Positions 14,350 through 50,152 of a stretch of DNA of 55,938 bases are shown in pieces. Numbering within the stretch: the stretch's first letter is position 1; every line of letters begins with the position of its first letter. The stretch comes from Bacteroidia bacterium. GTDB lineage: Bacteria; Bacteroidota; Bacteroidia; JAIBAJ01. Made by a program: the position numbers and the translations under genes. Below the pieces are notes generated by a model, which saw nothing but the letters and a program-made list of their open reading frames with translations, was not told where the DNA came from and made no database searches. The stretch covers positions 1 through 55,938 of the forward strand of contig JAIBAJ010000010.1 in NCBI GenBank assembly GCA_019695265.1. The letters are read 5' to 3'.

Positions 14350-15720
14350 TTATGGAAATTTAATGCCTTGTGTTGCACCAACGCTTATGGATGGAATATT
14401 AGCTTTGTAAGATTCGTTGATAACACGAATAAATTCATTGGCAACAATGGCCTGTCCCCGCTTAGAGGGATGTAAACCATCGAGGGAAAAGAAAGCTCCG
14501 GAAACCAACTCTCCGCTGAATTCGATACCATCATAATAGGTGTGATTGAAAATGGTTTCAAACAGTTTTTTGATGTCAACCACCGGAATTCCTTTTTCTT
14601 CGGCCTTGGCCAGTAAAACGGAATTAAATTGTTCGGTGGCGGTTCGGATGTTGTTGAGTTCTTCCGGGGTTAAGATGTATTCTTTGTTGAGCGGTTTTTC
14701 AGCCCCCCAGCCAGCACATTTCAGCGAATCAACCGGGGTTTTTAGGGTAACGTGTTCCTCAGCGGTAATAAATCGGGCGGTGTTTCCATCTTTTATAACA
14801 AATGGGTTTTTACCTAACTTAAATATCATACCGGTTCCGGAATATTGAGAATTTAAGGCATCAACCCGACTTTGCTCAGTTAATTCCAAATCATCGTATT
14901 TAATTCGGGTGATGTAAGGGAAAACAGTAATATCCGGAATGTTGGCCATAACCCCCAAAGCGCCTCTGGCTGTTAATGAATCAACCAGTGCATTTAAGGA
15001 GTAGGTAAAATCATTTAAGCTGGAAATTTTGTCGGTTACTTTTCCATTTCCGCCTTCTGTAGCATAACTAAGCACATCGCTGGTTCCTAAATCGATGGTA
15101 TAAAAGGTGGGTTGGGCTTTAAGTGATTCGAAAAGCACATTGGTGAAGAAGGAGTTTTGCACCATTCTCCAAAAGAATGGACTAAACGGAGAATTGTTGG
15201 TATAGCTTGATAATTCTCCGTATGATGGGGCCAGCAAGTCGGTCATTTTAAATGCCGGAATTCCCCAATGCTGATAAGGAGAGCTAGGGTTGGCAATTTT
15301 CTGGCTGTTATCGTTTAGATCTAGTTCGTTGTCACCGCTTAGTGCTAGTCGTTTTGGAAGCATTACCAGGTTTCCTTCGCAGTCGGTAAAGCGCTGCAAG
15401 GTCAACATAGAAAGGGTTCGGCTGTAATTGTTATTAATGGCATCGTAATCGGGATATACTCCGAGACTGCCTTTCAAATAAGGAATAGAAAAGTCTGAAC
15501 CACCTGCCAATTTAAACTGTTGAGCCAGTAGGTTGGGGTAGGAGGCTTCTTGACCTTCTTTACTCAAAGCTCCATCTGCAAATCCGGCGGCCATGCTACC
15601 GCCATAGGCTACATAGGATGAGAAATTAGCCGTTCCGGCCGAAGGTGTTGCTTTTTCAAATTCCTTTTGGCAGGAGGTAAATCCGACGATTGCCAGGGAA
15701 GCAAAAAATAGTCTTTTCAT
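14350..15720 (-). CDS. SGNH/GDSL-family lipoprotein hydrolase
   Basis: A 456-residue lipoprotein (lipobox GFTSC at the end of the signal peptide) of the Bacteroidota SGNH hydrolase group. Block I is YGGSMAAGF, with the nucleophile Ser in a Gly-Gly-Ser setting instead of GDS, and block V is DGLHPSKRG with the catalytic Asp and His. It is likely a lipase or esterase on the outer or periplasmic side. It starts 10 nt after the FadL-like gene and precedes the desaturase, which fits fatty acid release from lipids. The substrate is not known. Confidence 0.85.
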   Translation of the reverse strand: MKRLFFASLAIVGFTSCQKEFEKATPSAGTANFSSYVAYGGSMAAGFADGALSKEGQEASYPNLLAQQFKLAGGSDFSIPYLKGSLGVYPDYDAINNNYSRTLSMLTLQRFTDCEGNLVMLPKRLALSGDNELDLNDNSQKIANPSSPYQHWGIPAFKMTDLLAPSYGELSSYTNNSPFSPFFWRMVQNSFFTNVLFESLKAQPTFYTIDLGTSDVLSYATEGGNGKVTDKISSLNDFTYSLNALVDSLTARGALGVMANIPDITVFPYITRIKYDDLELTEQSRVDALNSQYSGTGMIFKLGKNPFVIKDGNTARFITAEEHVTLKTPVDSLKCAGWGAEKPLNKEYILTPEELNNIRTATEQFNSVLLAKAEEKGIPVVDIKKLFETIFNHTYYDGIEFSGELVSGAFFSLDGLHPSKRGQAIVANEFIRVINESYKANIPSISVGATQGIKFP

Positions 15721-15730
15721 GTTTTAACAA

Positions 15731-16966
15731 TCAAAATAGGATATGCAATCCAAAACTTGGAATGAGGGCAGAGGATTTATAGGTACCATAAAAACCGGTT
15801 TCGGGGCTACCACCGTAGCGTTTTCCGGAGGCGGTGTAAACCACAGCTACATCCAAGCCCAATGTTTTGGCAGCTTGGTAGGATAGTCCACCGGTTACTC
15901 CCCAGCGATTCGCATCCGGGGTTTCGGGGGTTAAGTAGTCCGACTGAACAGGACTCATATCAAAATAGCCACCGGCTCGCAAGGTCAATCGTTCCACCAC
16001 CCGGTATTCTGCACCTAATCTGAAGCAAAATGCATTTTTGTAAGCCTTGGTTAGTTTGGTGTCTTGCAATGGTTCTGAATTGGTTTCATAATCAAATTTC
16101 AGGGTATCGTAGCTGGACCATCCGGTGTAATTCACATCCAGGGCCAGGGTTAATTGTTTGTTTGGTTTGAAAGCTGCACCTAGGCTCAAACAAAAAGGAA
16201 GGTTAATGGACGATTTAAAGCCGGTTGAAGGAAACGAATCGGCCAAGGCAGTTGGAACATCAAACTCTGCTTTTCCATTGTTTAGGTTTAGTAGCGCGTT
16301 GGAACGGTAGTTTAAACCCAATTGAAATTTCTCATTTAGTTTATATAGCACTCCCAGATTAAATCCAACCGAGGTAGAAATTCCGGTTAACAAAGCTTGA
16401 CCCGGATTACCCAAAGTATCGGTTGTTGGGATAGCTCTGCGTAGGTAAATATTCCCGGAATAGATGCATAACCCTGCACCAACACCCAGTTGGTCGGTAA
16501 TTTTATAAGCAACGGTGGGTTGAAATGAAAACGTTTTCAGCGAAATTTCCCGAATGGCATATTGTCCCCGCCAATCATCTGCATATTTTAAACTTGAACC
16601 AAAAGGATTGTTGATGGAAATGCCGATGCTGAGTTTTGGGTGTTTTTTGAATCGGTGCGACATATAAAAGAAGAGGGGAGTGCCCAATTTGCTTTCATTG
16701 CGAGCGGTATAAAACCGGTCTTGGCTAACAAAGTCGACGGTAGCAAAAACTAAGCTGGCACCGACATTGACGTGAGAGCTGCTATCGAGGAAATTAACCG
16801 CGCCCGGGTTAAAGAACAAGCTGGAGGCATCTTGAGTTAATGCGGTTCCGGTTTGAGCCATACCATTTTGTCTGGCACCTTGCAATCCAACCTGAAAGCC
16901 TCCTGCATACAAAAAAGCCGGAACTGCCACTAAAAGCAGTCCCGGCAAATAGTTTCCGATTTTCAT
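15731..16966 (-). CDS. OmpP1/FadL/TodX-family outer-membrane transporter
   Basis: A 411-residue outer-membrane beta-barrel with a signal peptide (LLLVAVPAFLYAGGFQVG). The N-terminal hatch region has the family pattern GARQNGMAQTGTALTQDASS followed by LFFNPGAVNFL, and the rest alternates amphipathic strands to a terminal aromatic residue (GLHILF). The family takes up long-chain fatty acids or other hydrophobic compounds. Its start codon directly follows the stop of the secreted esterase gene, and a lipase follows, supporting fatty acid import. Confidence 0.92.
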   Translation of the reverse strand: MKIGNYLPGLLLVAVPAFLYAGGFQVGLQGARQNGMAQTGTALTQDASSLFFNPGAVNFLDSSSHVNVGASLVFATVDFVSQDRFYTARNESKLGTPLFFYMSHRFKKHPKLSIGISINNPFGSSLKYADDWRGQYAIREISLKTFSFQPTVAYKITDQLGVGAGLCIYSGNIYLRRAIPTTDTLGNPGQALLTGISTSVGFNLGVLYKLNEKFQLGLNYRSNALLNLNNGKAEFDVPTALADSFPSTGFKSSINLPFCLSLGAAFKPNKQLTLALDVNYTGWSSYDTLKFDYETNSEPLQDTKLTKAYKNAFCFRLGAEYRVVERLTLRAGGYFDMSPVQSDYLTPETPDANRWGVTGGLSYQAAKTLGLDVAVVYTASGKRYGGSPETGFYGTYKSSALIPSFGLHILF

Positions 16967-18202
16967 TTATTCGAAAATAATTCGTTTGGTGATGGTATTT
17001 TTATCTGAGCTGATTTTCACTAAATACAAACCTGCTCCTAAGTCTTCTTTATTTAGAACCATGCGACTTCCGGAAGCAGCAAGGGTTTTGATTTTTTTAC
17101 CGGTTAAATCATAAACCTCAGCGGTAAAGCCAATGAATCCGGTTTCTAACACCATGGTATTGTTAGATGGATTTGGGAAGGCACGGATGGTGTTTTCTTT
17201 GTTTGGACCATGGATACCCACCTCTCCACAAACTTGTTCAAACAAGAAATCGGTGGTGAAGGTGATGGTAGAATCCATGTATTTAGCTCCGTCACTACCC
17301 GGGATGATATAGTTTACAAAAGGAACGTGGTCTGCACCCGGCCAGGTATGGAAAGAATGTGTAAGGCCTAAATTTCCGGCACGAATATCTAAAGATGCAC
17401 TTCCATCCACTTCTAAAATTTTAACACCGGAAACATAGATGGTATCTGAACCATAAGGAACCGTTCCGTCATCGGTGCCATGCATACTAACGATGGCAGC
17501 ATTTCCGGGTTCCATCCAGGTGGTATCGCCAATGGCACCACAAAGATTTACAACGCCTTTTACTTTGGAAGAGTAACCGGGATTACCGCTGTTTCCTTCA
17601 ATTCCACCAAGGGCAACAGCTTCAGATTGAATCCAAGGCTGAAGTTCACTTATTTTATCCATGTAAGCAGTATGAATACCTACAAAAGCTCCTGCCGATA
17701 CTCCTCCTACAAAAATATTGTTGGTATCGATTCGGTAGGAATTAGAAGTTGCGGCATCTTTATAAAAATAACGAACACAGGCTTTCATGTCCTGAACACC
17801 ACGCAACACGGCTTTCATCATGTTTACCGAGTCGATTGGGTCGGCTCCGATGCGGTATTTAATGGAAACAGCCACATATCCTTTTTTTACATAGGCATTG
17901 CAAAGTTTAAGAATATCCGGACTTTCTTTTACCCCTGAAATAAAGCTACCTCCAAAGGCCATAATAACCAATGGGCGGTGACTCATGGTATCTCCTTCCG
18001 GTTCAAAAACATACATGTCTAAGGATTCGGTGGTGCCTTGGTAATTGGGGGCAGAGCCGTACACTACCGCGCCAGGCAAGCTGGGAAAACCGCTATCCAT
18101 AAAGCCGGGGAAGAGGTTGTTTTGAAAGCGACCGCCTTCACACTGAGCAAAGGCTTGAGTGCCAAGGAGAATGGTACATACGAGGGTAAACAGTTTTTTC
18201 AT
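16967..18202 (-). CDS. Secreted alpha/beta-hydrolase esterase with T9SS sorting domain
   Basis: A 411-residue secreted enzyme: signal peptide (LVCTILLGTQAFAQ); carboxylesterase/BD-FAE-type alpha/beta-hydrolase core with oxyanion region PLVIMAFGGSFISG, nucleophile GVSAG, acid Asp in HGTDDGTVPYG and a likely catalytic His in GADHVPF; then a ~75-residue type A T9SS sorting domain (AFPNPSNNTMVLE, VYDLTGKKIKTL, GLYLVKIS). It is a paralog of the protein at 36908-38182. It heads the presumed lipid operon. Function as an ester or lipid hydrolase is inferred from fold and neighbours. Confidence 0.9.
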   Translation of the reverse strand: MKKLFTLVCTILLGTQAFAQCEGGRFQNNLFPGFMDSGFPSLPGAVVYGSAPNYQGTTESLDMYVFEPEGDTMSHRPLVIMAFGGSFISGVKESPDILKLCNAYVKKGYVAVSIKYRIGADPIDSVNMMKAVLRGVQDMKACVRYFYKDAATSNSYRIDTNNIFVGGVSAGAFVGIHTAYMDKISELQPWIQSEAVALGGIEGNSGNPGYSSKVKGVVNLCGAIGDTTWMEPGNAAIVSMHGTDDGTVPYGSDTIYVSGVKILEVDGSASLDIRAGNLGLTHSFHTWPGADHVPFVNYIIPGSDGAKYMDSTITFTTDFLFEQVCGEVGIHGPNKENTIRAFPNPSNNTMVLETGFIGFTAEVYDLTGKKIKTLAASGSRMVLNKEDLGAGLYLVKISSDKNTITKRIIFE

Positions 18203-23543: not shown

Positions 23544-25700
23544 TTAAGCCGGTTCCAAAACTTCCTGCATACGTTTTACCTTGGGTTTGGAATGCCATTC
23601 ATAAAACAAAGAATTCGGATCCCACTTTTCTCTAATGCGCTGAACTTGTTCCAAATGATGGTCCGACATGAATGAAAAGGTTCGTTTGTGCAATCCTTCA
23701 TCAGCAAGCTGAATACCCGTTGATAGATGTTCCATCGATTTCATGGTTTCAAAGGCCCATTTCCCATATTTGGCAGTATCTTCCGGGTTTTTCCAACAAC
23801 TGTACAAAGCTAAATACAGCTTGTCTTCTTTGCTGTGGGCCATATTGGTCGGTATTTGATCGGCTTGCCAGTTTAACCACAAAAAATGTGAAGGAGAGGC
23901 CGGTAGGTGGTGGGCGATGTTTTTGATATGGGGCAATAGTTCTTCTATACCGGCATGGGTCCACATATTATCTACTCCCCAATGGTGGTCTTCCGGGTAA
24001 TGGCTCATAACAGCGCGGTAAAAAAGTTCCATTCCGGGATTAAAGGTGGGTAAGGAAAACAAGGCTTTTTTTCGAATCGGACTTTCTTTCATAAACCGCT
24101 GAGCCTCTTCAAACTCGTCTCTGCTATCTGCGAAAATGGGAGCAAAAGCCTCCATTCCCGGCCCCAGGAAGCCATTCATATTTCGGTTCATTAGAATTTG
24201 AAATTCAACGGCCTTTGGAATGGATGGCCCAACTTCATGAGCCCAACGATACACTTCTTCCAAATGGGCCATTCGGAAATTCTGTATCATAACTCCACGA
24301 TAGGCTGGCAGAGGAAATAGCTTCAGATAAAATGCAACCACTACTCCAAAAAAGCCCGGACCCGAACCCCTTGCCGCCCAAAACAAATCGGCATTTTCCT
24401 TTTCACTGGCATGCACCAGTTCGCCACTTGCTGTCACAATATCCATGGCTGCAATGTGTTGACACGCAATTCCCATTTTTCGGCCGTTCCATCCATAACC
24501 GCCTTGCAATAAATAGCCACCGATGCAAACGCCTTTGCAATGCCCCGCCGGAAAAAAGAGATTTTGATTTACCAAGGCTTTTAGCAACACACTTCCTCCT
24601 ACTCCCGGACCCGCTTTGGCAAGCATGGCCTCTTTGTTCACTTCAAATTGGTTGAAGTTTTTCATCAGAAGCAAAATACCATTGTCGCGTATGAAGTTTG
24701 CACTAAAGCTATGTCCACCCGATGAAATGCTGACCTTTTTCCCAACTCCTTTGGCGTATTTCAGCACAGCAATTACGTCTTCGATGGTTTGGGGTTCTAT
24801 CACCATGGAGGGTCGAATGCCATGGTCCCATTTGTTAAAAAGGGTGCTTTTTACCAGGGTATCAAAGCCAGGTTCTCCGGCTTGGGTAACTTTACCTGCC
24901 AAAGCCAAGCTTTCGGTTTGGTGGGTTTGGTATAATTCAGGAAGAAAGCCGGCCAAATGTCCCATCTCTTCACCGCAATGCAATAAAAGGTTTTGAGCAA
25001 AATTTTTGGGAAGAGGCTTTAATTTAGAACCGATGAATTTGGCCAATTCAGGAATTTTGCCTCCATTTCTTAATCCAAGGTATGCTGCCCCAATCCAGAA
25101 TCTGGAACGCATTTCGGAACCGTTTTCTGTTTGGCGAATCTGGTGTACTAAATATCCAAAATCAATAGGGGCATCTACCAAACCTAGTCGGGCACAAATA
25201 AAAACCTGCTTGTTTTTTTCTGAAATGGAGGCTTTGGAAAACCCAAAATCAAGGGGAGATTTGAACTGTATGGCAGCATCCGACAATTCTTCTCCGATAT
25301 ATTCACGAATGATGGAAGTGCGTCCAATGTAACAGGAATCGGTTTTCCCATCGGACCAGCGCGCTGAAACATGGGCCCCGGGATGCCAAAGTCGGTAACG
25401 TTGGTCCTGTGAACCGTGCCAGCCAAACCACCAATCCCACATTTCGGGCTCTACTCCGGGCATAGGTGTTAGAACCGCTATTTTAATACTGCCGTCGGAC
25501 TTTTGGCAATATCCGTTTTCAACAGGTTGGTATCCCGGATTTTCAAGTTCTGCCACTTGCTCAAAATCAGGGAGCTTTTCCCATGGCAGGGAGCCGGATG
25601 CAATGGCTTTTTTTATTTCTAAATCCGGTTGATATATAGTTTCATTGAAAAACCCTGCAAGGTCTTGATCGAAAGTGATTGGTTTTACCTGATTAGCCAT
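23544..25700 (-). CDS. Fusion: PhlG-like C-C hydrolase domain + berberine-bridge-type FAD oxidase
   Basis: 718 residues, two enzyme parts. Residues about 1-265 resemble the DAPG/phloretin hydrolase (PhlG) family, zinc-dependent enzymes that cut acyl-aryl C-C bonds of acylphloroglucinols: MWDWWFGWHG, RLWHPGAH (His 106/110) and HCGEEMGH (His 241, Glu 245), the HxxxE spacing of the metal site. Residues about 290-718 are an FAD-binding oxidase of the vanillyl-alcohol/berberine-bridge group: SISSGGHSF (His ~330) and FPAGHCKGVCIGGYLLQGG (Cys ~388), the two sites of bicovalent FAD, with the BBE-type end WDPNSLFYEW. No signal peptide. It stands alone with an exact -7 element upstream. Predicted action on plant-type phenolics is inference. 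Confidence 0.82.
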   Translation of the reverse strand: MANQVKPITFDQDLAGFFNETIYQPDLEIKKAIASGSLPWEKLPDFEQVAELENPGYQPVENGYCQKSDGSIKIAVLTPMPGVEPEMWDWWFGWHGSQDQRYRLWHPGAHVSARWSDGKTDSCYIGRTSIIREYIGEELSDAAIQFKSPLDFGFSKASISEKNKQVFICARLGLVDAPIDFGYLVHQIRQTENGSEMRSRFWIGAAYLGLRNGGKIPELAKFIGSKLKPLPKNFAQNLLLHCGEEMGHLAGFLPELYQTHQTESLALAGKVTQAGEPGFDTLVKSTLFNKWDHGIRPSMVIEPQTIEDVIAVLKYAKGVGKKVSISSGGHSFSANFIRDNGILLLMKNFNQFEVNKEAMLAKAGPGVGGSVLLKALVNQNLFFPAGHCKGVCIGGYLLQGGYGWNGRKMGIACQHIAAMDIVTASGELVHASEKENADLFWAARGSGPGFFGVVVAFYLKLFPLPAYRGVMIQNFRMAHLEEVYRWAHEVGPSIPKAVEFQILMNRNMNGFLGPGMEAFAPIFADSRDEFEEAQRFMKESPIRKKALFSLPTFNPGMELFYRAVMSHYPEDHHWGVDNMWTHAGIEELLPHIKNIAHHLPASPSHFLWLNWQADQIPTNMAHSKEDKLYLALYSCWKNPEDTAKYGKWAFETMKSMEHLSTGIQLADEGLHKRTFSFMSDHHLEQVQRIREKWDPNSLFYEWHSKPKVKRMQEVLEPA

Positions 25701-26188: not shown

Positions 26189-26773
26189 TTATTTCCGGGA
26201 CAAACGTTTTAATTTGGATAGCCATTCGGGCGAAATACCCATTAGTTCCGCAATGTATTTGGATGGTACGTTTTGAATTAAAGATGGAAGATTTTTTAGG
26301 AAATAAGCATACAAATCCTCCGAACGGTAAGCGATAATTTTCAATTTTAAATCGTTTTCTTCCGTTAAGGCTTTAATGATGGTCGAATGATAAAAGCGAT
26401 GTAGCTGCGGGTCGCGATCAATAATTTCCACCAAAATCTGTTTAGATAAGGCCAATACCGTGGAGGGTGAAATAGCTCGCAATTCGCAATGAGTGGGAGT
26501 TTCTTCAAAAAAGCTATCGACACAAACCATGAAAGGATGCAAGTCGGGCAGAAAAAAATTGATGGTTTTGAAAATGTCTTTTTCTTCATCGATGTACCGG
26601 CAAACAAAACCACCTTCAACCACGACATATAAAGTATCATTGATTTGTCCGGGCTGTACCAAAACCTGGTTGGATTTGAGTTGGATAGCCGTTCCATTGG
26701 CTAACATTTCCGACAGTGTACCTTCTCCAAATTCGGGTAGTATTAAGTTGGAAATGAATTGATTGGGGTTCAT
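26189..26773 (-). CDS. Crp/Fnr-family transcription regulator
   Basis: A 194-residue protein: N-terminal cyclic-nucleotide-binding-like beta-roll (about 15-120; LYVVVEGGFVCRY, then a divergent phosphate-binding region) and a short C-terminal helix-turn-helix (VPSKYIAELMGISPEWLSKL). Such short Crp-like proteins are common in Bacteroidota; the ligand is unknown. It starts 24 nt after the BP74-like secreted protein gene, so the two are probably co-transcribed. Confidence 0.88.
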   Translation of the reverse strand: MNPNQFISNLILPEFGEGTLSEMLANGTAIQLKSNQVLVQPGQINDTLYVVVEGGFVCRYIDEEKDIFKTINFFLPDLHPFMVCVDSFFEETPTHCELRAISPSTVLALSKQILVEIIDRDPQLHRFYHSTIIKALTEENDLKLKIIAYRSEDLYAYFLKNLPSLIQNVPSKYIAELMGISPEWLSKLKRLSRK

Positions 26774-26797: not shown

Positions 26798-27490
26798 TTA
26801 ATTAGAAGTTAGTCCAAACCTTTGACGAAAGCATTGATTCATAGCGTTGTATATTTCGAATAGGTAATAACCATTTTCCAAATCGGGCAATGAAAGTAGG
26901 AGCAGGGGCGAATTCGTTTTTCCGGTTTTTAGGCGTTTGCCCTGTAAATCATAAATTGTCCACGTATACCAATCGGTATCAGGCAGGGTCATTTTCAACT
27001 CTTTTCCCTGTTGTTGCAACACCAAACCGGATGGGTTCATGGAGTAGGGTTGAATGGAAATGGGCTGACTAATTTCCCTTGCCGGACGGCCGGACCAGGG
27101 GCAAAATTGTCCAAGGGTTTGCAACCAATACGCTGTGTCTGCGTCTACATCCGAATAAGGGCAACCATCGCATACCTCGATGGCAAGTTCGGCCAGGTTC
27201 CATTGGTTGGGGTTAAAGTGCCAAAGAAACCAATGGTTGGCATTGTGGTTGTACCCTGAATTTCCTGCTTCAATAGTCCCGCTAATAAATTTGCGATTCT
27301 CTATTGGTCTGCCCAGGTTGGCTAATACGGTATCAATTAATTCGGGGTTGGAAGTCGCGGCAATGAAGGAGGTATCTTGCCAGGCTCCATGGCCACATTG
27401 GGTAGTAAATTCAAAATACCTCCAGGTTTGGGCTTGGGAAACCGAAAGATATAAACAGGCTGAAAGGGCGCACAGCAACAAGGTTTTCAT
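26798..27490 (-). CDS. Secreted BP74-like protein with T9SS-type C terminus
   Basis: 230 residues with a signal peptide (LLLCALSACLYLSVSQAQ). Residues about 22-140 resemble the BP74-like domain known from actinobacterial 'calmodulin-related' proteins: RYFEFTTQ, LIDTVLANLGR, FISGTIEAG, WFLWHFNPN and AIEVCDGCPYSDVD. The C terminus (TWTIYDLQGKRLKTGK, then LENGYYLFEIYN) looks like a type A T9SS sorting domain, so the protein is probably exported to the surface. The molecular role of BP74 proteins is not established. It is followed by the Crp-like gene. The BP74 assignment is from memory of the pattern and needs a profile search. Confidence 0.65.
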   Translation of the reverse strand: MKTLLLCALSACLYLSVSQAQTWRYFEFTTQCGHGAWQDTSFIAATSNPELIDTVLANLGRPIENRKFISGTIEAGNSGYNHNANHWFLWHFNPNQWNLAELAIEVCDGCPYSDVDADTAYWLQTLGQFCPWSGRPAREISQPISIQPYSMNPSGLVLQQQGKELKMTLPDTDWYTWTIYDLQGKRLKTGKTNSPLLLLSLPDLENGYYLFEIYNAMNQCFRQRFGLTSN

Positions 27491-27659: not shown

Positions 27660-28730
27660 TTAAATGCCTGAATAATCCGTGTAGCCAACAGCGTCGGCCG
27701 TGTAAAACGTTTCAGGATTTGCCTGATTTAATGGTAGTTTTCCGGCAATTCGGGCGGCGAACTGTGGGTTAGCCAAAATACCTTTTCCAAATCCAACTAA
27801 ATCAGCAATTCCTTCTTGTAATTTTTGTTCGGCACTTTCAGGGTTTAATCCATTACAAAGGATAAGGGTTTTTTGAAAAGCATCCCGAATTCCTTGCAAA
27901 GTGCGGTCTTGCATTGCCGGATTGATGGATAAGTGAATGTAAGCAATTCCGATTGCATTTAGTTTTTGCGCCAAATACACGTACAATGCATGAACTTCTT
28001 CTGGGTCATAAGCCGGCAAATCGTTGTAGGTTGAATAAGGCGAAAAGCGGATTCCGATGCGTTCGGCTCCAATTTCGGCGCTCATTTTTTCAACAAGTTC
28101 TATTACAAATCGGGAACGGTTTTCGTATTCTCCACCGTATCCATCTTCACGGCTGTTTACCGTTGGATGCAAAAATTGTTCTAATAAATAACCATTAGCC
28201 GAATGCAATTCAACGCCGTCAAATCCGGCTGCCATAGCGTTTTTACCTGCTTCCACAAAGGCATTCATAACCTTTTCAACCCCGTCTGAGGTAAGAGCCA
28301 AAGGTTGAGAATTATCCACCATTCCCAGGCTGTCTGAAAATATTTTTCCGGACGGCTTTTTGGCAGACGGCCCCACTAAATAAAATCCTTTCGGGAGGTT
28401 TGATTCATGCCCCACTCGTCCGGTATGCATCAACTGAATAAAAATCTTAGCTCCTTTTTGATGTACAGCCTTGGTAACTTTTTTCCAGGCTTCGACTTGT
28501 TCACGGTTAAAAATTCCGGGAATTCGGGCGTATCCAAGTCCTTCCGGCGAGGGAGAAGCTCCTTCTGTAACAATCAGTCCAATGTCGGCTCGCTCGGAAT
28601 AATACGTTGCCATTAATTCGTTCGGTAGGTTGCCAATAGCCCTGCATCGGGTCATCGGCGCCATAACAATATGATTTTGTAAGGACAATCCTTTTTGTTT
28701 GTAAGGACTCAACAGTTTCAAATCAGCCAT
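27660..28730 (-). CDS. Old Yellow Enzyme family NADH:flavin oxidoreductase
   Basis: An FMN-dependent alkene reductase of 356 residues. TIM-barrel landmarks: LQNHIVMAPMTRCRAIGN at the N terminus, GFDGVELHSANGYLLEQF, REDGYGGEYENRSRF, and VGFGKGILANPQFAARI near the end. It reduces activated C=C bonds of enones or nitro compounds with NAD(P)H. I set the start at 28730 (MADLKLLSPYKQKGLSLQNH), because the exact -7 element TAGGTTTG (28752-28745) lies inside the longer frame that begins at 28778. Confidence 0.93.
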   Translation of the reverse strand: MADLKLLSPYKQKGLSLQNHIVMAPMTRCRAIGNLPNELMATYYSERADIGLIVTEGASPSPEGLGYARIPGIFNREQVEAWKKVTKAVHQKGAKIFIQLMHTGRVGHESNLPKGFYLVGPSAKKPSGKIFSDSLGMVDNSQPLALTSDGVEKVMNAFVEAGKNAMAAGFDGVELHSANGYLLEQFLHPTVNSREDGYGGEYENRSRFVIELVEKMSAEIGAERIGIRFSPYSTYNDLPAYDPEEVHALYVYLAQKLNAIGIAYIHLSINPAMQDRTLQGIRDAFQKTLILCNGLNPESAEQKLQEGIADLVGFGKGILANPQFAARIAGKLPLNQANPETFYTADAVGYTDYSGI

Positions 28731-28744
28731 AATCTTTCGGGACG

Positions 28745-28752
28745 CAAACCTA
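28745..28752 (-). promoter_or_regulatory. -7 element (TAGGTTTG) of the OYE gene
   Basis: An exact TAnnTTTG on the minus strand, 14 nt upstream of the chosen ATG, with a TTG 23 nt further upstream. It rules out the start at 28778. Confidence 0.55.
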
Positions 28753-28855
28753 GGAATATTAAGCCTTGCAGTACCCAAGAATTTGTAAACTTTTGTGAAA
28801 ATTATTTTACCCGGATTAAGGTATCAACTGATTTTGATTTTTTTCCGGATTATTT

Positions 28856-42391: not shown

Positions 42392-45300
42392 ATGAAAAGA
42401 GCTTTACTAACCACCCTGACCTTGATTGTTGTGTTGTTGCTGACTAACCAACGATCGTTTTCCCAGTGTACCACGGGATGTACGGTAACAATCTCCACAA
42501 ACACCACTTCCTACAGTGTCCCGAGCGGGGCAACAGTATGTATTGCTTCGGGTGTTACGGTTGGAACTTTGAGCAATGTAACCTCCGGTAAAACGGTCAT
42601 AAACTGTGGTACTGTGAATAGCTTTTCCATTGGTGGTGGTATCATCCAGAACTATGGAACCATGAAAACGACTGCCGGTTTGAATAGCGGTACCTTAAAC
42701 AACAACGCGGGAGGCACTATCAATATCACCGCTAATTTAGCGTTTGGATCGGGTTTGGTTTTTACCAACTCTGGTACTTTTTCAGCCAGTGGTAATATCA
42801 CCTTAAACTCCTCATCTACCTTTAATGCGGGTGGAACGGTAAGTATTGGAGGGAACTTAGTGGTTAAAGGGACCATGGTGGTTAACACCTCCATTTCGAA
42901 TATCAGTGGTTCGATAACTGTTAACTCAGGAGGTATTATCAGAGGAGGTACAAATTCATGTAATCGAATTTGTGCTACCGGCAATATCAGCAATTCCGGT
43001 ACAATTGGTGGAGGGTCATATGCATTGGTGGTTTGTAAAGCATTGAATTCAGGCAGTGTTACTTCTCCGGCGGTTGTTTCAACTGCTACAGGTGAGCCTA
43101 CCAACTCACCTACATCATTGAGTTTATCGTTAAGTTCCTCTTCATCAAATGGAACCTTTACTGCAGCGGCAGCGGGTTCGGCAGCGGCAACCGGTTATCT
43201 GGTATTAAGACGAATTGGTTCGGCAGTAACCGATGTACCGGTTGATGGAACCACCTATTCCGTTGGAAATACCATCGGTAGCAGCACTGTAGTTAGTGTA
43301 AATAATACCGCTACTACCACCTTTTCAGATAATATTTCAACGTGCGGAACCTATTATTATGCAGTTTTCAGTCTTCGTGGTGCCGGAAACTGCCTTGATT
43401 ATAAAACGAGTTCGCCTTTAACTGGTAGCATTTCTACCATTCCAACCGTTACTTCCACTACGCCCGGTTCCGGTTGTGGAACGGGTAGTGTTACTTTAGG
43501 TGCTACAGCATCCAATGGAACGTTAAGTTGGTATGCTGCTTCAACCGGAGGATCTTCCTTGGGAACCGGTACAAGTTTTTCAACCCCATCCATTTCTTCC
43601 ACTACCACTTATTATGTGGATGCAACCAATGCGGGTTGTACTTCTGCCTCCAGAACAGCAGTAACGGCAACAATAAATCCTTCAGCTACCATTTCTAGTT
43701 CATCCGGGGCAAGCCGTTGTGGAACAGGTACCTTGACTTTAACAGCAACAGCTTCCAATGGAACAGCTACCTTAAACTGGTATGCTGCCTCATCCGGTGG
43801 CTCTTCATTAGGTACAGGCACATCCTATACAACTCCTTCTATTTCTTCAACTACTACGTATTATGTTTCTGCAACGCTAGGTAGTTGCACCAGTGCAAGA
43901 ACTGCAGTTGTGGCTACGGTGAATGCAATACCTACCATTTCTACTGCAACTTCGGCAAGTCGTTGTGATGCCGGAACAGTCTCCCTTTCAGCAGCCGCAT
44001 CCAACGGAACAGCAACAATTAATTGGTATGCAGCTTCGAGCGGGGGATCCAGTTTTGCTACCGGAACAACCTATACAACACCTTCCTTGTCCACCACAAC
44101 TACCTATTATTTAGATGCCACTTTAAATGGTTGTACAACAGCTTCCAGAACAGCTATTACAGCTACTATCAACGCCACCCCTAGCATTTCAACTTCTACA
44201 GGTGGCTCGCGTTGTGGAACCGGAACTGTTACACTTTCTGCCACAGCATCCAATGGATCGGCTACATTAAACTGGTACGCTGCTTCTTCCGGTGGTTCTT
44301 CTTTAGGGACCGGAACTTCTTTTACAACTCCATCCATTTCAACTACCACAACGTATTATGTAATTCCAACATTAAACAGTTGTACCCCAGCCTCCAGAAC
44401 CGCAGTGGTGGCAACAGTAAATTCCATACCAACCATTTCATCTACTACCGGTGCAGCAAGGTGCGGCGCGGGAACGGTAAGTTTAGCTGCAGCCGCATCT
44501 AATGGAACAGCAACCATAAATTGGTATGCCGCTTCTTCCGGTGGTTCAAGTTTAGGAGCAGGAACATCTTTTACTACACCTTCTATTTCATCTACCACCC
44601 TGTATTATGTAGATGCCACATTAAATGGATGTACCACCGCTTCAAGAAGTTCGGTTACCGCAACCATAGATGCCTCTCCAACTGTTTCCAATGCCGGAAG
44701 TAGCATCAGCCAATGTAATACTTCAGCCTTTGTAATGGCAGCGAATGTGCCTTCTGTTGGTACAGGAGCCTGGTCGGTAGTTAGCGGTTCCCCAACAATT
44801 TCGAATTCGGCTTCTGCAACTTCAGCAGTAACCTTGGCGGCAGGAAATACGGCAACCTTACGTTGGACTATCTCCAATGGAAGTTGTCCGGCATCAGCCA
44901 GCACGGTAACCATTACCAATAGTTCATTGGGTACAACTGCAACGGCCGGTACAACAACCGCTCAATGTAACAATGGCCTTTTTACTGCAACAGGAAATAT
45001 TCCTTTGGTTGGAGTTGGTTCTTGGAGCTTGGTAAGTGGTTCCGCAACCATTGCTTTGCCGGCAGTGAATATTACAACGGTTTCGGGTGTTCCGGTTGGA
45101 ACAGCTGCCGTTGTTCGTTGGACCATTACCAATGGAGCTTGTTCTACCGGAGCAAACGTGACTTTTACCAACGATGCTTCTCCTACCACTTCGGCCGCCG
45201 GGTCAAATATAACCCAATGTAATACCTCCACCTTTGTAATGGCTGCCAATACTCCGGTAGTTGGTACAGGGTTGTGGTCAGTTGCAAGCGGTACTGCAAC

Positions 45301-48300
45301 TATTGCAACACCATCTTCACCAACTTCGAATATAACTGTAGCCGCAGGAGCAACAGCTACCTTACGTTGGACCATTTCCAACGGATCTTGTGCTTCGTCT
45401 CAAAGCACTGTGGTTTTAACCAATAGTGCAGTTCCTACAACTTCCAATGCAGGAACAGATCTAAACAACTGTAACAACGGTAGCTTTACCTTAGCCGGTA
45501 ATTCTCCTTCAGTTGGTACAGGTGCATGGAGTGTGGTAAGTGGTACAGCAACCATTACCACCCCAAGTTCAAGAACTTCAGGAGTTACGGGCGTGCCTGT
45601 AGGTAGTTCTGCAACCTTGGCCTGGACTATTACCAATGGAGCTTGTACTTCAACAGATAATGTAGTATTGACAAATTTTGCAACTCCGACTACTTCCAAT
45701 GCAGGTGCAGCCATATACAATTGTAACAATACCGTATTTACCATGGCGGCTAATACTCCAACAGTGGGTACCGGCTCCTGGAGTGTAGTTAGTGGTTCTG
45801 CTACCATAGCAACACCAAGTTCACCAACATCTTCAGTAACTTTAACTTCAGGAACAACCGCCACATTAAGATGGACTATTAGCAATGGCCCTTGTACTGC
45901 AAGTACTTCCAATGTTGTAATTACCAATGTTATTATTTCATCCAGTATTTCCGGTACTAATATTTCTTGTCCGGGTGGAAGCAATGGAACAATTACTCTT
46001 TCTTCTGTTGCCAATGGTTTAGCGCCATACACGTACTTATGGAGCAATGGATCAACTTCTCAAAATCAGTCTGGTATAGTAGCAGGTGCTTATACCGTAA
46101 CTATCACCGATAGCAGAGGTTGTACCGGTACCAATAATATTACTCTAACTCAACCGAACGTTATTGCAGGTTCGGCAACAGTTACCAATGCTACTTGCGG
46201 TTGGTGTTCTGATGGTTCTGCTACAGTATCTGCTTCTGGCGGAACAGGTCCCTATACCTATTTGTGGGACAATGGCTCCACCTCTACTTCCCGCTCAGGA
46301 ATGGCGGTAGGAACTTATCCGGTTACTATAACCGATAGCAGAGGTTGTACCAACACCTATAATGTTGTGGTACGTGGTCCAATTGCAGCATCTATTACCA
46401 GTGGTAGCTCTTGTTCTGCCAATGCTGGTACAGCCACCGCAACAGGTGTGGGTGGTTTCCCTCCTTATACCTATTCCTGGAGCACCGGTTCAACATCTCA
46501 AACTATTTCCAACCTTGCTGCTGGCACTTACACGGTTACTGTTAGAGATGCCACCAACGCTACTGCTACCCAATCAGTTACTATTACCAATACAGTTGTT
46601 AACCTAAGCGTTAGCCCTTCCACTTCCACTATCTGTTTGGGTGGTTCGGTAAATATTACAGCTTCCGGATCTAGCTTCTATTCTTGGTCACCTTCTACCG
46701 GATTGAGCAATGCCAGCATATCAAATCCGGTTGCTACACCAACTGTTTCAACCACCTATACCTTAACCGGTAGCACTACAACTGCCAACTTGGTTACCAA
46801 TGGTGATTTTTCTTCCGGAAATACCGGTTTTACAAGCGACTACATTTACGTGAGCCCTGCAGCAAATGCGGCAAGTTCAGGCGGAAACACCGGATTGTGG
46901 CCTGAAGGTGATTATGCCATTACCAACAATGCTGTGACTTACCACCCGCATTTTTCCGGTACCGGTCACGGTGGAAGCGGAAACTGTATGGTTATTAATG
47001 GTGCTCCTGCTTCAGGGGCAGAAATTTGGAGACAAAACATTTCGGTTACTCCCAACACCGATTACACCTTTTCAACCTGGATTTCTAGCGTGGTAGCTAG
47101 CAGCCCGGCCCAACTGCGCTTTGGAATTAATAATGTGGTTCAAGGTGCTGTTATTACCAGCCCCAACACCACCGGTTCCTGGGTTCAATTCAGTACAACC
47201 TGGAACTCCGGTTCTAATACCTCGGCTGAAATTGCCATTGTAAACAACAATACAGTATTAAGCGGTAACGACTTTGCATTAGATGATATCATGTTTACTA
47301 CCCAATGTTCGGCATCCGGAACAGTTGCTATTACAGTAAATAATCCTCCAGCTATAACAACCCATCCAAATGATGCTGCTGCCTGTGCCGGTGATTCAAA
47401 AACCTTTACTGTAGCTGCTACCGGTTTTGGTCCGCTTAGCTACCAATGGCAAGTGAGCACCAATGGTGGAGGTTCTTATTCCAATATTTCAAATGGTGGA
47501 AACTACTCCAATGCCACAACAGCTAGTTTAACCGTTTCCGGTATTACTACTGCCCTTAATTCATACAAATATCGTTGTGTAGTTACCGGAGGTTGCTCCC
47601 CAACAGCAACTTCCAATGCGGCAACTTTAACCGTAACCGCTATTCCAACCATTACATCGGTTACCAACGGACAAGTTTGTTTTAGTGGAACTGTTTCTCT
47701 TGCTGCCGTTGCATCCAATGGTTCTGCTACCATTAATTGGTATGCTGCCTCCACCGGAGGTTCAAGTTTAGGAACTGGTTCTTCGTTTACCACACCATCT
47801 ATTTCTTCAACTACCAACTACTATGTAGATGCAACTTTGAATGGTTGTACAACCGCTTCACGCACCTTGGTGGTTGCAACCGTTATTGCAATGCCTAGCT
47901 TTACTTCCACTACTCCGGCCAGCCGTTGCGGTTCCGGTTCAGTGGTTTTAGGTGCAGCAGCAACAGCCGGAACCATTAATTGGTATGCTGCGTCGGCAGG
48001 CGGTTCAAGCCTTATCGCCGGAACTTCCTACACCACCCCTAGCTTGTCGTCTACTACAACCTATTATGTCGATGCAACCACCAGCGGTTGTACTTCCTCT
48101 CCAAGGGTTTCTGTAGTGGCTACTATCAATACCATTCCAACTATTACCGGTACTACTCCGGCCTCAGCTTGCGGTACCTCCTCGGTTGCGCTTGCTGCTA
48201 CTGCCTCAGGTGGAACCATCAACTGGTATTCAGCATCTACCGGAGGTTCAAGCCTTGGATCAGGGGCCACTTTTAATACCCCATCGCTTGCTACCACCAC

Positions 48301-50152
48301 CACGTATTATGTGGATGCAACCCTCGGAAGCTGTACCTCTACTTCAAGAACAGCAGTTACTGCTACTATTAATCCTATTCCTAGCATTTCAAGTGCAACT
48401 TCAGCATCTCGTTGTGGAAACGGAACAGTGAATCTAACCGCCGCAGCTTCAACCGGAACTATCAATTGGTATGCAGCTTCAAGCGGTGGATCTAGCTTAG
48501 GAACCGGAACTACCTACACTACACCTTCTTTGTCTACAACTACCACATACTATGTAGATGCAACTGCTAGCGGATGTACCACCGGTTCTCGCACCGCTGT
48601 GACGGCTACAGTCATTGCTGTGCCAACTATCACGGCCTCCACACCTGGCTCTAATTGTGGCCCCGGAACCGTTAGCTTGGGAGCAACAGCTTCTGTTGGA
48701 ACGGTTCAATGGTTTGCCGCTGCCTCAGGCGGATCTGCATTGGCAAGTGGAAATAGTTATACCACTCCGCTAATCAGCACCAATACCACCTATTATGCCG
48801 GTGCCGATAACAGTGGTTGCACTACCGCTTCCCGAACAGCAGTCCTTGCAACCATTTACACTATTCCTACTGTGACCGCAACAACACCCGGTTCTAATTG
48901 TGGAACAGGTACCGTAAACTTGGGTGCTACTGCCTCCGCCGGAACGTTGAATTGGTACGCAGCCAGTTCAGGAGGAGCAAGCCTTGGCTCAGGTACCAGC
49001 TTCACCACTCCTTCCATTTCTTCTTCAACTACTTACTATGTTGATGCTACCGCAAATGGTTGTACCACTGGTTCCCGCAGTTCGGTTTTGGCTACTATCA
49101 ATGCCATTCCAAGCATTACTTCCACTACCGCCGGAAGCCGTTGTGGATCGGGTACGGTAAGCCTTTCCGCAGCTTCCTCTGCCGGAACCATCAGTTGGTT
49201 TGCCGCTTCTACCGGAGGCTCCGCTCTTGGAACAGGTACTTCTTTTACCACGCCTTCCTTGTCTTCTACCACCACCTATTATGTTTCTGCAACTGCCAAT
49301 GGTTGTACAACAGCTAGTCGTTCCAGCGTAACAGCTACCATCAATACGGCTTTGGGAATCGTAACTCAACCTACCGCTCCTTCATTATGCCTTGGAAACA
49401 ACGCAACCATAGCCGTAGTGGCAGTAGGTTTATTGCCTAGTTACCAATGGCAAGTAAGCACTAATGGTGGTAGCACCTTCTCCGATATTCCAAACGGTGG
49501 TGTTTATTCCTTGGCTACAACTCCTGCTTTACTTATTACCGGTGCAACAACTGCTATGAACAATTACCAATACCGTTGCGTTGTAACTAGCGCCGGTTGC
49601 GGAACAGGTGCCACAACCAACGCCGTAACCATGACAGTTCAAAATCCTTCCCTTGGTTTAACCGGTTATTCACCACAAGCAGGTGATTACTTCTGGACCG
49701 GTCTTTCTTCTATTGGTTGGGATTTGCCCGGCAACTGGTTGTCATTCGATGGGGTTAACTGGTTGTTGCCAAGCATCTTACCGGCTACCACCAACAACGT
49801 GGTTATCAGAACCGGTGGGGTAGGAAATGCCTGCATATCCGGTAGCAATCAACCAACAATCTATGCCACTTCTTTCGCTAAAAAATTATTTATCGAAGCA
49901 GGTGCAACACTTACCGTTTCTGGTAGCAACGTGTTGAAAGTGTCAAACGACTGGACCAACAACGGAACCTTCGTTCCAAGTACCGGTACAGTGGAGTTTA
50001 ATGGCACCGGAAATCAAACCGTAATCACCGGTGGAGTAGGGGTTGGAAAACAATTTTACAATGTTTCAATTAAAACACCAAACGACCGCAGATTGATCGT
50101 TCCTTCCGGCCAGGAAATGAAAGTGTTGGGTAGCGTAACCGTTCAACCCTAA
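42392..50152 (+). CDS. Giant secreted repeat adhesin (2586 aa) without sorting domain
   Basis: Signal peptide (TLTLIVVLLLTNQRSFSQ), then an N-terminal ~300 residues of beta-helix-like Gly/Asn/Thr repeats. Then about twelve ~80-residue Ig-like repeats with WYAASxGGSSLGxGTSxTTPS and TTTYYVDAT, in blocks of five and seven; five ~80-residue repeats with FxMAANxPxVGTGxWSVVSG and ATLRWTISNG; three SprB-like repeats (PPYTYxWSxGSTSQ); a jellyroll-like region (NLVTNGDFSSGN); and two Ig-like domains with SYQWQVSTNGG. The C terminus (VPSGQEMKVLGSVTVQP) shows no T9SS sorting domain. The DNA repeats invite recombination. Likely an adhesin, inferred. A T9SS-tagged protein follows 59 nt later. Confidence 0.9.
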   Translation: MKRALLTTLTLIVVLLLTNQRSFSQCTTGCTVTISTNTTSYSVPSGATVCIASGVTVGTLSNVTSGKTVINCGTVNSFSIGGGIIQNYGTMKTTAGLNSGTLNNNAGGTINITANLAFGSGLVFTNSGTFSASGNITLNSSSTFNAGGTVSIGGNLVVKGTMVVNTSISNISGSITVNSGGIIRGGTNSCNRICATGNISNSGTIGGGSYALVVCKALNSGSVTSPAVVSTATGEPTNSPTSLSLSLSSSSSNGTFTAAAAGSAAATGYLVLRRIGSAVTDVPVDGTTYSVGNTIGSSTVVSVNNTATTTFSDNISTCGTYYYAVFSLRGAGNCLDYKTSSPLTGSISTIPTVTSTTPGSGCGTGSVTLGATASNGTLSWYAASTGGSSLGTGTSFSTPSISSTTTYYVDATNAGCTSASRTAVTATINPSATISSSSGASRCGTGTLTLTATASNGTATLNWYAASSGGSSLGTGTSYTTPSISSTTTYYVSATLGSCTSARTAVVATVNAIPTISTATSASRCDAGTVSLSAAASNGTATINWYAASSGGSSFATGTTYTTPSLSTTTTYYLDATLNGCTTASRTAITATINATPSISTSTGGSRCGTGTVTLSATASNGSATLNWYAASSGGSSLGTGTSFTTPSISTTTTYYVIPTLNSCTPASRTAVVATVNSIPTISSTTGAARCGAGTVSLAAAASNGTATINWYAASSGGSSLGAGTSFTTPSISSTTLYYVDATLNGCTTASRSSVTATIDASPTVSNAGSSISQCNTSAFVMAANVPSVGTGAWSVVSGSPTISNSASATSAVTLAAGNTATLRWTISNGSCPASASTVTITNSSLGTTATAGTTTAQCNNGLFTATGNIPLVGVGSWSLVSGSATIALPAVNITTVSGVPVGTAAVVRWTITNGACSTGANVTFTNDASPTTSAAGSNITQCNTSTFVMAANTPVVGTGLWSVASGTATIATPSSPTSNITVAAGATATLRWTISNGSCASSQSTVVLTNSAVPTTSNAGTDLNNCNNGSFTLAGNSPSVGTGAWSVVSGTATITTPSSRTSGVTGVPVGSSATLAWTITNGACTSTDNVVLTNFATPTTSNAGAAIYNCNNTVFTMAANTPTVGTGSWSVVSGSATIATPSSPTSSVTLTSGTTATLRWTISNGPCTASTSNVVITNVIISSSISGTNISCPGGSNGTITLSSVANGLAPYTYLWSNGSTSQNQSGIVAGAYTVTITDSRGCTGTNNITLTQPNVIAGSATVTNATCGWCSDGSATVSASGGTGPYTYLWDNGSTSTSRSGMAVGTYPVTITDSRGCTNTYNVVVRGPIAASITSGSSCSANAGTATATGVGGFPPYTYSWSTGSTSQTISNLAAGTYTVTVRDATNATATQSVTITNTVVNLSVSPSTSTICLGGSVNITASGSSFYSWSPSTGLSNASISNPVATPTVSTTYTLTGSTTTANLVTNGDFSSGNTGFTSDYIYVSPAANAASSGGNTGLWPEGDYAITNNAVTYHPHFSGTGHGGSGNCMVINGAPASGAEIWRQNISVTPNTDYTFSTWISSVVASSPAQLRFGINNVVQGAVITSPNTTGSWVQFSTTWNSGSNTSAEIAIVNNNTVLSGNDFALDDIMFTTQCSASGTVAITVNNPPAITTHPNDAAACAGDSKTFTVAATGFGPLSYQWQVSTNGGGSYSNISNGGNYSNATTASLTVSGITTALNSYKYRCVVTGGCSPTATSNAATLTVTAIPTITSVTNGQVCFSGTVSLAAVASNGSATINWYAASTGGSSLGTGSSFTTPSISSTTNYYVDATLNGCTTASRTLVVATVIAMPSFTSTTPASRCGSGSVVLGAAATAGTINWYAASAGGSSLIAGTSYTTPSLSSTTTYYVDATTSGCTSSPRVSVVATINTIPTITGTTPASACGTSSVALAATASGGTINWYSASTGGSSLGSGATFNTPSLATTTTYYVDATLGSCTSTSRTAVTATINPIPSISSATSASRCGNGTVNLTAAASTGTINWYAASSGGSSLGTGTTYTTPSLSTTTTYYVDATASGCTTGSRTAVTATVIAVPTITASTPGSNCGPGTVSLGATASVGTVQWFAAASGGSALASGNSYTTPLISTNTTYYAGADNSGCTTASRTAVLATIYTIPTVTATTPGSNCGTGTVNLGATASAGTLNWYAASSGGASLGSGTSFTTPSISSSTTYYVDATANGCTTGSRSSVLATINAIPSITSTTAGSRCGSGTVSLSAASSAGTISWFAASTGGSALGTGTSFTTPSLSSTTTYYVSATANGCTTASRSSVTATINTALGIVTQPTAPSLCLGNNATIAVVAVGLLPSYQWQVSTNGGSTFSDIPNGGVYSLATTPALLITGATTAMNNYQYRCVVTSAGCGTGATTNAVTMTVQNPSLGLTGYSPQAGDYFWTGLSSIGWDLPGNWLSFDGVNWLLPSILPATTNNVVIRTGGVGNACISGSNQPTIYATSFAKKLFIEAGATLTVSGSNVLKVSNDWTNNGTFVPSTGTVEFNGTGNQTVITGGVGVGKQFYNVSIKTPNDRRLIVPSGQEMKVLGSVTVQP

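Follow-up and report, generated by a model that had tools for sequence, protein, structure and literature searches.

A single-chain fusion of a PhlG-type C-C hydrolase and an EncM-like flavin oxidase as a candidate two-step enzyme

We describe a 718-residue protein in which a PhlG/phloretin-hydrolase-type C-C hydrolase domain and an EncM-like flavin oxidase domain are joined in one reading frame, encoded in the window (the whole 55,938-nucleotide stretch of Bacteroidia DNA that was analysed). We consider it probable, at somewhat better than even confidence, that the protein is a self-contained, inducible two-step enzyme, which would combine an O2-dependent oxidation with a hydrolytic (retro-Claisen-type) C-C cleavage on one substrate. 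The fusion is a new combination of two known families. An earlier note, made from the DNA letters alone, was aware of no characterised example, and the open literature that we searched agrees with it, having yielded no paper that describes the fusion or the gene pair, and none with both phlG and berberine bridge.

Layout and active sites of the fused protein

The fused gene, its domains and the gene upstream of it are as follows (coordinates of the window).

23544..25700, minus strand: fused gene, 718 aa, PhlG/phloretin-hydrolase-type C-C hydrolase plus VAO/PCMH FAD oxidase (single ORF, Pfam, PDB sequence matches, AF2 and Foldseek)
24927..25574, minus strand: DAPG-hydrolase domain PF18089, residues 43-258, with ligands H110, E133, H241 and E245 (Pfam, PDB alignment, homologue alignment)
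24897..24926, minus strand: linker of ~10 residues (259-268) from hydrolase end to oxidase start (length comparison of fusions)
24408..24812, minus strand: FAD-binding PCMH domain PF01565, residues 297-431, with H330, C388, V391 (gatekeeper), G386 and C392 (Pfam, EncM alignment, homologue alignment)
23547..24407, minus strand: oxidase substrate-binding region, residues 432-718, without a Pfam match, residues 585-700 aligning with EncM (PDB sequence match, Foldseek)
26189..26773, minus strand: Crp/Fnr-like regulator with a cNMP-binding domain, 194 aa, upstream of the fusion and co-directional (Pfam, neighbourhood)

The gene is one unbroken ORF of 718 codons for amino acids, with its ATG at 25700 and its stop at 23544, which bears out the earlier description of a single chain free of frameshifts, and it is present in single copy in the source genome. 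The PF18089 match spans the full profile (1-223 of 223, E 2e-59) and scores 201.3 bits against a curated cut-off of 22.7, and the PF01565 match (E 2.9e-28) scores 98.7 bits against a cut-off of 26.4. The segment from residue 258 to 297 measures 40-44 aa in 28 of the 29 fusions known to us and 48 in the remaining one (L028), only ~10 residues of it being true linker. An AlphaFold2 model, for which the 29 fused sequences served as input (mean pLDDT 78, pTM 0.65), gave Foldseek matches, from this one model, to EncM (E 4.6e-27, target TM 0.82) and to phloretin hydrolase (E 3.6e-20, target TM 0.77). A chance origin of the fusion is excluded by the E-values, the 62% full-chain identity to a second fusion and the existence of 28 single-frame fusions in total apart from the window protein, which also rule out an assembly or frameshift artefact.

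The solved structures nearest in sequence to the N-terminal half are the M. abscessus phloretin hydrolase (E 5e-31) and PhlG. The DAPG-type hydrolase domain claimed in the earlier note is there at full profile length, with the HCGEEMGH metal motif at residues 241-248, and alignment to the two structures places the four ligand positions at H110, E133, H241 and E245, the aligned PhlG residues being its metal ligands. Both the N-terminal family match and the metal site, on which that note had made its reading depend, are present on the evidence of sequence and fold. The four ligands are invariant in 56/56 hydrolase halves, and also in the further loci examined, coupled or uncoupled; H186, the counterpart of the catalytic His of PhlG, is kept in 55/56, and Y102 is likewise kept in the family alignment. 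The phloretin hydrolase of Mycobacterium abscessus (5xe5/5xey) and PhlG of Pseudomonas fluorescens (3hwp) share with the window protein the fold, the whole domain length, the four ligands, H186 and Tyr102, whereas they are stand-alone proteins and have Tyr at the position of Phe201. That Tyr (Tyr229 of PhlG) and Asn132 are the phenol-hydroxyl contacts of PhlG, and their equivalents here are Phe201 (56/56) and Ala113 (51/56), which makes an acylphloroglucinol, and indeed the phenolic nature of the substrate, uncertain. The window protein falls far below the cut-off of the PhlG equivalog NF047887 (82.9 bits against 600). We had considered F201 as a marker of the oxidase-coupled group and rejected it, since most uncoupled PF18089 proteins also have Phe; a PhlG-like Tyr is retained in one uncoupled group (L062-L064).

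These residues bear on the version of the two-step idea given in the earlier note, a special case in which hydrolysis comes first, the N-terminal half deacylating a compound that resembles an acylphloroglucinol or acylresorcinol and the C-terminal half oxidising the phenol or acid so freed. DAPG and phloretin are the substrates of those PF18089 members whose activity is known, and the nearest structures and the kept Y102, H186 and metal ligands fit such breakdown of acylphenols; the Phe201/Ala113 replacements and the PhlG-like Tyr of uncoupled L062-L064 speak against it, and we regard it as rather unlikely.

For the C-terminal half the best solved match by sequence is EncM (E 1e-34), with BagK/FevA1 also among the nearest relatives. 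Both FAD anchors reported earlier lie where they were said to, namely H330 (in GGHS), which falls on the histidine anchor in the EncM alignment, and C388 (in PAGHC), which lies opposite a Val of EncM, at the Cys site of bicovalent family members. H330 is kept in 52/56 (Arg in L002, L006, L017 and L019, of Saprospiraceae/Chitinophagales type) and C388 in 54/56 (Ala in the two proteobacterial members), so the bicovalent FAD of the earlier note stands as a likely property of the window protein but not as a universal one of the family. C392, opposite a Gly of EncM, varies with C388, both being replaced together (Ala, Gly) in proteobacterial L053 and L054 and retained together elsewhere. The gatekeeper position (EncM T139 by alignment) is held by Val391, and by Val in 55/56; a valine there gives a fast reaction with O2 in BBE-like enzymes (PMC4513132), and an oxidase rather than a dehydrogenase is therefore predicted.

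The label "berberine-bridge-type" in the earlier note needs narrowing. The window protein does have in common with BBE-like oxidases the PF01565 domain, the His and Cys anchors and the oxygen-reactivity positions Gly386 and Val391. However, of the profiles that the note had proposed, PF18089 and PF01565 were matched but PF08031 (BBE) had no hit in the window protein at E 1 and only weak ones in 5/29 fused proteins (best E 0.027), and the Y/FxN motif that BBE-subfamily members carry at the C terminus (PMC11375781) is absent, the C terminus in this family reading F-x-E-W-H-S or similar. Judged by these profiles and motifs, the C-terminal half is an EncM-like VAO/PCMH oxidase and not a proven member of the BBE subfamily. 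EncM itself (Streptomyces, enterocin pathway) is its best match in both sequence and fold, at 22% identity in the structural alignment, and shares the His anchor; unlike the window protein, it has Val at the Cys388 site, flavin-N5-oxide chemistry and no hydrolase domain.

Distribution of the fusion and of the separate gene pair

A scan of 84,980 species genomes gave 57 loci, and the architecture, which the earlier note had proposed to count across genomes, was found in 28 fusions beyond the window protein (L002, from the Bacteroidota sample, included; L033, L037, L060 and the second copy of L027, which look frame-broken, left out). These 28 single-frame proteins are 54-63% identical to the window protein over the full length, and 29/29 fused proteins match PF18089. 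They come mainly from Saprospiraceae/Chitinophagales MAGs and from Spirosoma, Runella, Larkinella, Emticicia and Sphingobacterium, with a single Ignavibacteria MAG in addition. The PF18089 domain was found in 3/395 sampled Bacteroidota genomes, the window genome included, and in 0/59 class-level relatives of the window genome, and within the Bacteroidota family of Runella 15/15 strong PF18089 matches are fused to or adjoin the oxidase. Two loci show variants of the arrangement: a Saprospiraceae MAG (L027, 3586-8517) carries the fusion twice in tandem, the copies being separated by a Crp-like gene and the second one looking frameshifted, and a Runella MAG (L045, 2426-4521) has retained a TetR gene and the oxidase, with only a remnant of the hydrolase half.

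At 22 loci in Bacteroidota, Acidobacteriota, Planctomycetota and Pseudomonadota the halves are separate adjacent genes in the order hydrolase-oxidase, the gap usually being within 160 bp or an overlap (660 bp in one case). In a tree of the joined sequences all fused proteins fall into one clade (90/92), which is nested in a clade of 33 rows (100/100) where the other deep branch, L012 and L058, has split genes; two seeming splits within the fused clade (L037 and the second copy of L027) look frameshifted. The tree is consistent with one origin, and the simplest reading would be a single fusion event in Bacteroidota from an ancestral two-gene operon.

Mycobacteriales carry PF18089 in 19/299 genomes, and at 12/20 places there the order is reversed, the oxidase gene immediately preceding the hydrolase gene on the same strand. 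PF18089 genes are uncoupled at the other 8/20 places and in 7/8 cases in the Pseudomonadota sample; with so many uncoupled genes in other groups, the hydrolase chemistry needs no oxidase in general. In the tree of the hydrolase domain, 49/50 coupled proteins fall into one group (SH-aLRT 93) with a single uncoupled tip inside, the exception being coupled L060, which has a long branch; on the evidence of this tree, the oxidase-coupled hydrolases are one subfamily.

The mycobacterial pair can be connected to published annotations. Rv1775 of M. tuberculosis is a PhlG-like C-C hydrolase by structure modelling and probably not a phloretin hydrolase (PMC8562490), a judgement that, as Rv1775 is probably a member of the present group, also counts against the acylphenol version above. 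Rv1774 is an oxidoreductase resembling cytokinin dehydrogenase (PMC11925245), and nearby numbers include Rv1771 (L-gulono-1,4-lactone dehydrogenase), Rv1777 (P450) and Rv1781c (MalQ-type enzyme) (PMC4880925). Several of the mycobacterial loci have the order gulonolactone-oxidase-type gene, IclR, oxidase, hydrolase, in some with P450 and MalQ-like genes beyond (the MalQ-like identity by inspection). Rv1774-Rv1775 combine adjacent locus numbers, a PhlG-like hydrolase with an oxidoreductase, and flanks that match those of our loci, and differ from the window protein in being separate genes with the oxidase first. Synteny and the published annotations suggest that the reversed-order mycobacterial pair is Rv1774-Rv1775.

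Local regulators and the proposed reaction

A gene of the Crp/Fnr-like family is found immediately upstream in ~28 loci, the window among them; its product in the window is 57% identical to that of L005, and the gap there is 488 bp, as against 65-110 bp in most of these loci. Most split Bacteroidota loci have a TetR-family regulator in its place (12 loci, gaps of 71-147 bp, by Pfam), and in mycobacteria this place is taken by a divergent IclR-family gene (9 loci). That three regulators of unrelated families occupy this one position suggests that local, inducible control has been selected for more than once. Across the neighbourhoods compared, the regulator is the only neighbour that recurs beside the pair; neither a transporter nor another catabolic gene does so. 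The same neighbourhoods bear on a role in natural-product tailoring, in which an EncM- or BagK-like oxidative rearrangement would belong to a biosynthesis and the hydrolase half would trim the product. The nearest relatives of the oxidase half are indeed biosynthetic (EncM, BagK/FevA1), but polyketide and peptide synthase genes are absent from the examined parts of the window, and among the neighbours of the relatives only regulators recur consistently and no biosynthetic gene does; we judge tailoring to be improbable.

The reaction that we propose for the two-step enzyme would run as follows. The C-terminal EncM-like flavin domain, its FAD held by His330 and Cys388, would pass two electrons from the substrate to O2, an acceptor predicted on the strength of the gatekeeper Val391. 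In the N-terminal half, the Zn-type hydrolase domain would hydrolyse a C-C bond beside a carbonyl in retro-Claisen fashion, by analogy with DAPG or phloretin. Both domains would act on one and the same compound, the probable candidates being an acylated phenol and a beta-diketone that arises from the oxidation. The dedicated local regulator would probably control expression, and we therefore infer a role in inducible catabolism or detoxification. As to the order of the steps, we lean slightly, barely past even, towards oxidation before hydrolysis: the beta-dicarbonyl required by a retro-Claisen hydrolase would arise if oxidation came first, whereas hydrolysis first would fit the known acylphenol substrates.

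A shared pathway is supported by the conservation of both active sites together with the fusion and the pairing in both gene orders. The two-step reading is weighed down by the missing recurrent transporter or catabolic gene, by the uncoupled PF18089 genes and by the search having turned up no member whose activity is known, and the Phe201/Ala113 residues make a phenolic substrate uncertain. Of the "two-step enzyme for plant or algal phenolic breakdown" put forward in the earlier note, the two-step part is strongly supported by the conserved gene coupling, whereas a plant or algal phenolic, though possible, lacks support. The two activities might also have been joined for co-regulation only and act on different molecules, e.g., as a hydrolase beside an H2O2-generating oxidase, and such a reading draws on the existence of uncoupled hydrolases and on neither half having a known substrate. 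However, the two halves have stayed together across several phyla, in either gene order as well as in fused form, and alongside different regulators, which favours a shared pathway, and we hold co-regulation alone to be improbable.

Extending the two-step reading beyond the fusion, we see a previously undescribed, widespread two-enzyme route as a real possibility that falls somewhat short of even: an EncM-like oxidase would prepare the substrate for a PhlG-type C-C hydrolase, in a pair ancestral to several phyla and fused in Bacteroidota, with Rv1774-Rv1775 as the mycobacterial form. C-C bond hydrolases are uncommon and few members of the PhlG family have known substrates, and the fusion and the pairing conserved over several phyla link two orphans, a hydrolase subfamily and a flavin oxidase. 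With the single fused protein, a reaction that would otherwise need two separate proteins, including those of the apparently orthologous M. tuberculosis pair, can be put to a direct test.

Other genes of the window

Directly before the Crp-like regulator lies a gene with a BP74 N-terminal domain (26798-27490, minus strand; PF23621, E 1.9e-22) and a weak secretion tail, which is not conserved beside relatives of the fusion. We had considered a flavonoid pathway of enoate reductase plus phloretin hydrolase, and dropped it when neither the OYE-like gene (27660-28778) nor the BP74 gene was found to recur beside the relatives. About 5 kb downstream of the fusion, a tight run on the minus strand (14350-18202) comprises GDSL lipase-like, FadL/TodX-type outer-membrane transporter and BD-FAE (feruloyl-esterase-like) genes, an uptake and ester-cleavage set of which the BD-FAE protein ends in a type IX sorting tail. 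Further along, on the plus strand (42392-50152), a 2586-aa protein with twelve Ig_7 repeats (CHU_C-associated) is likely a large surface or secreted protein.
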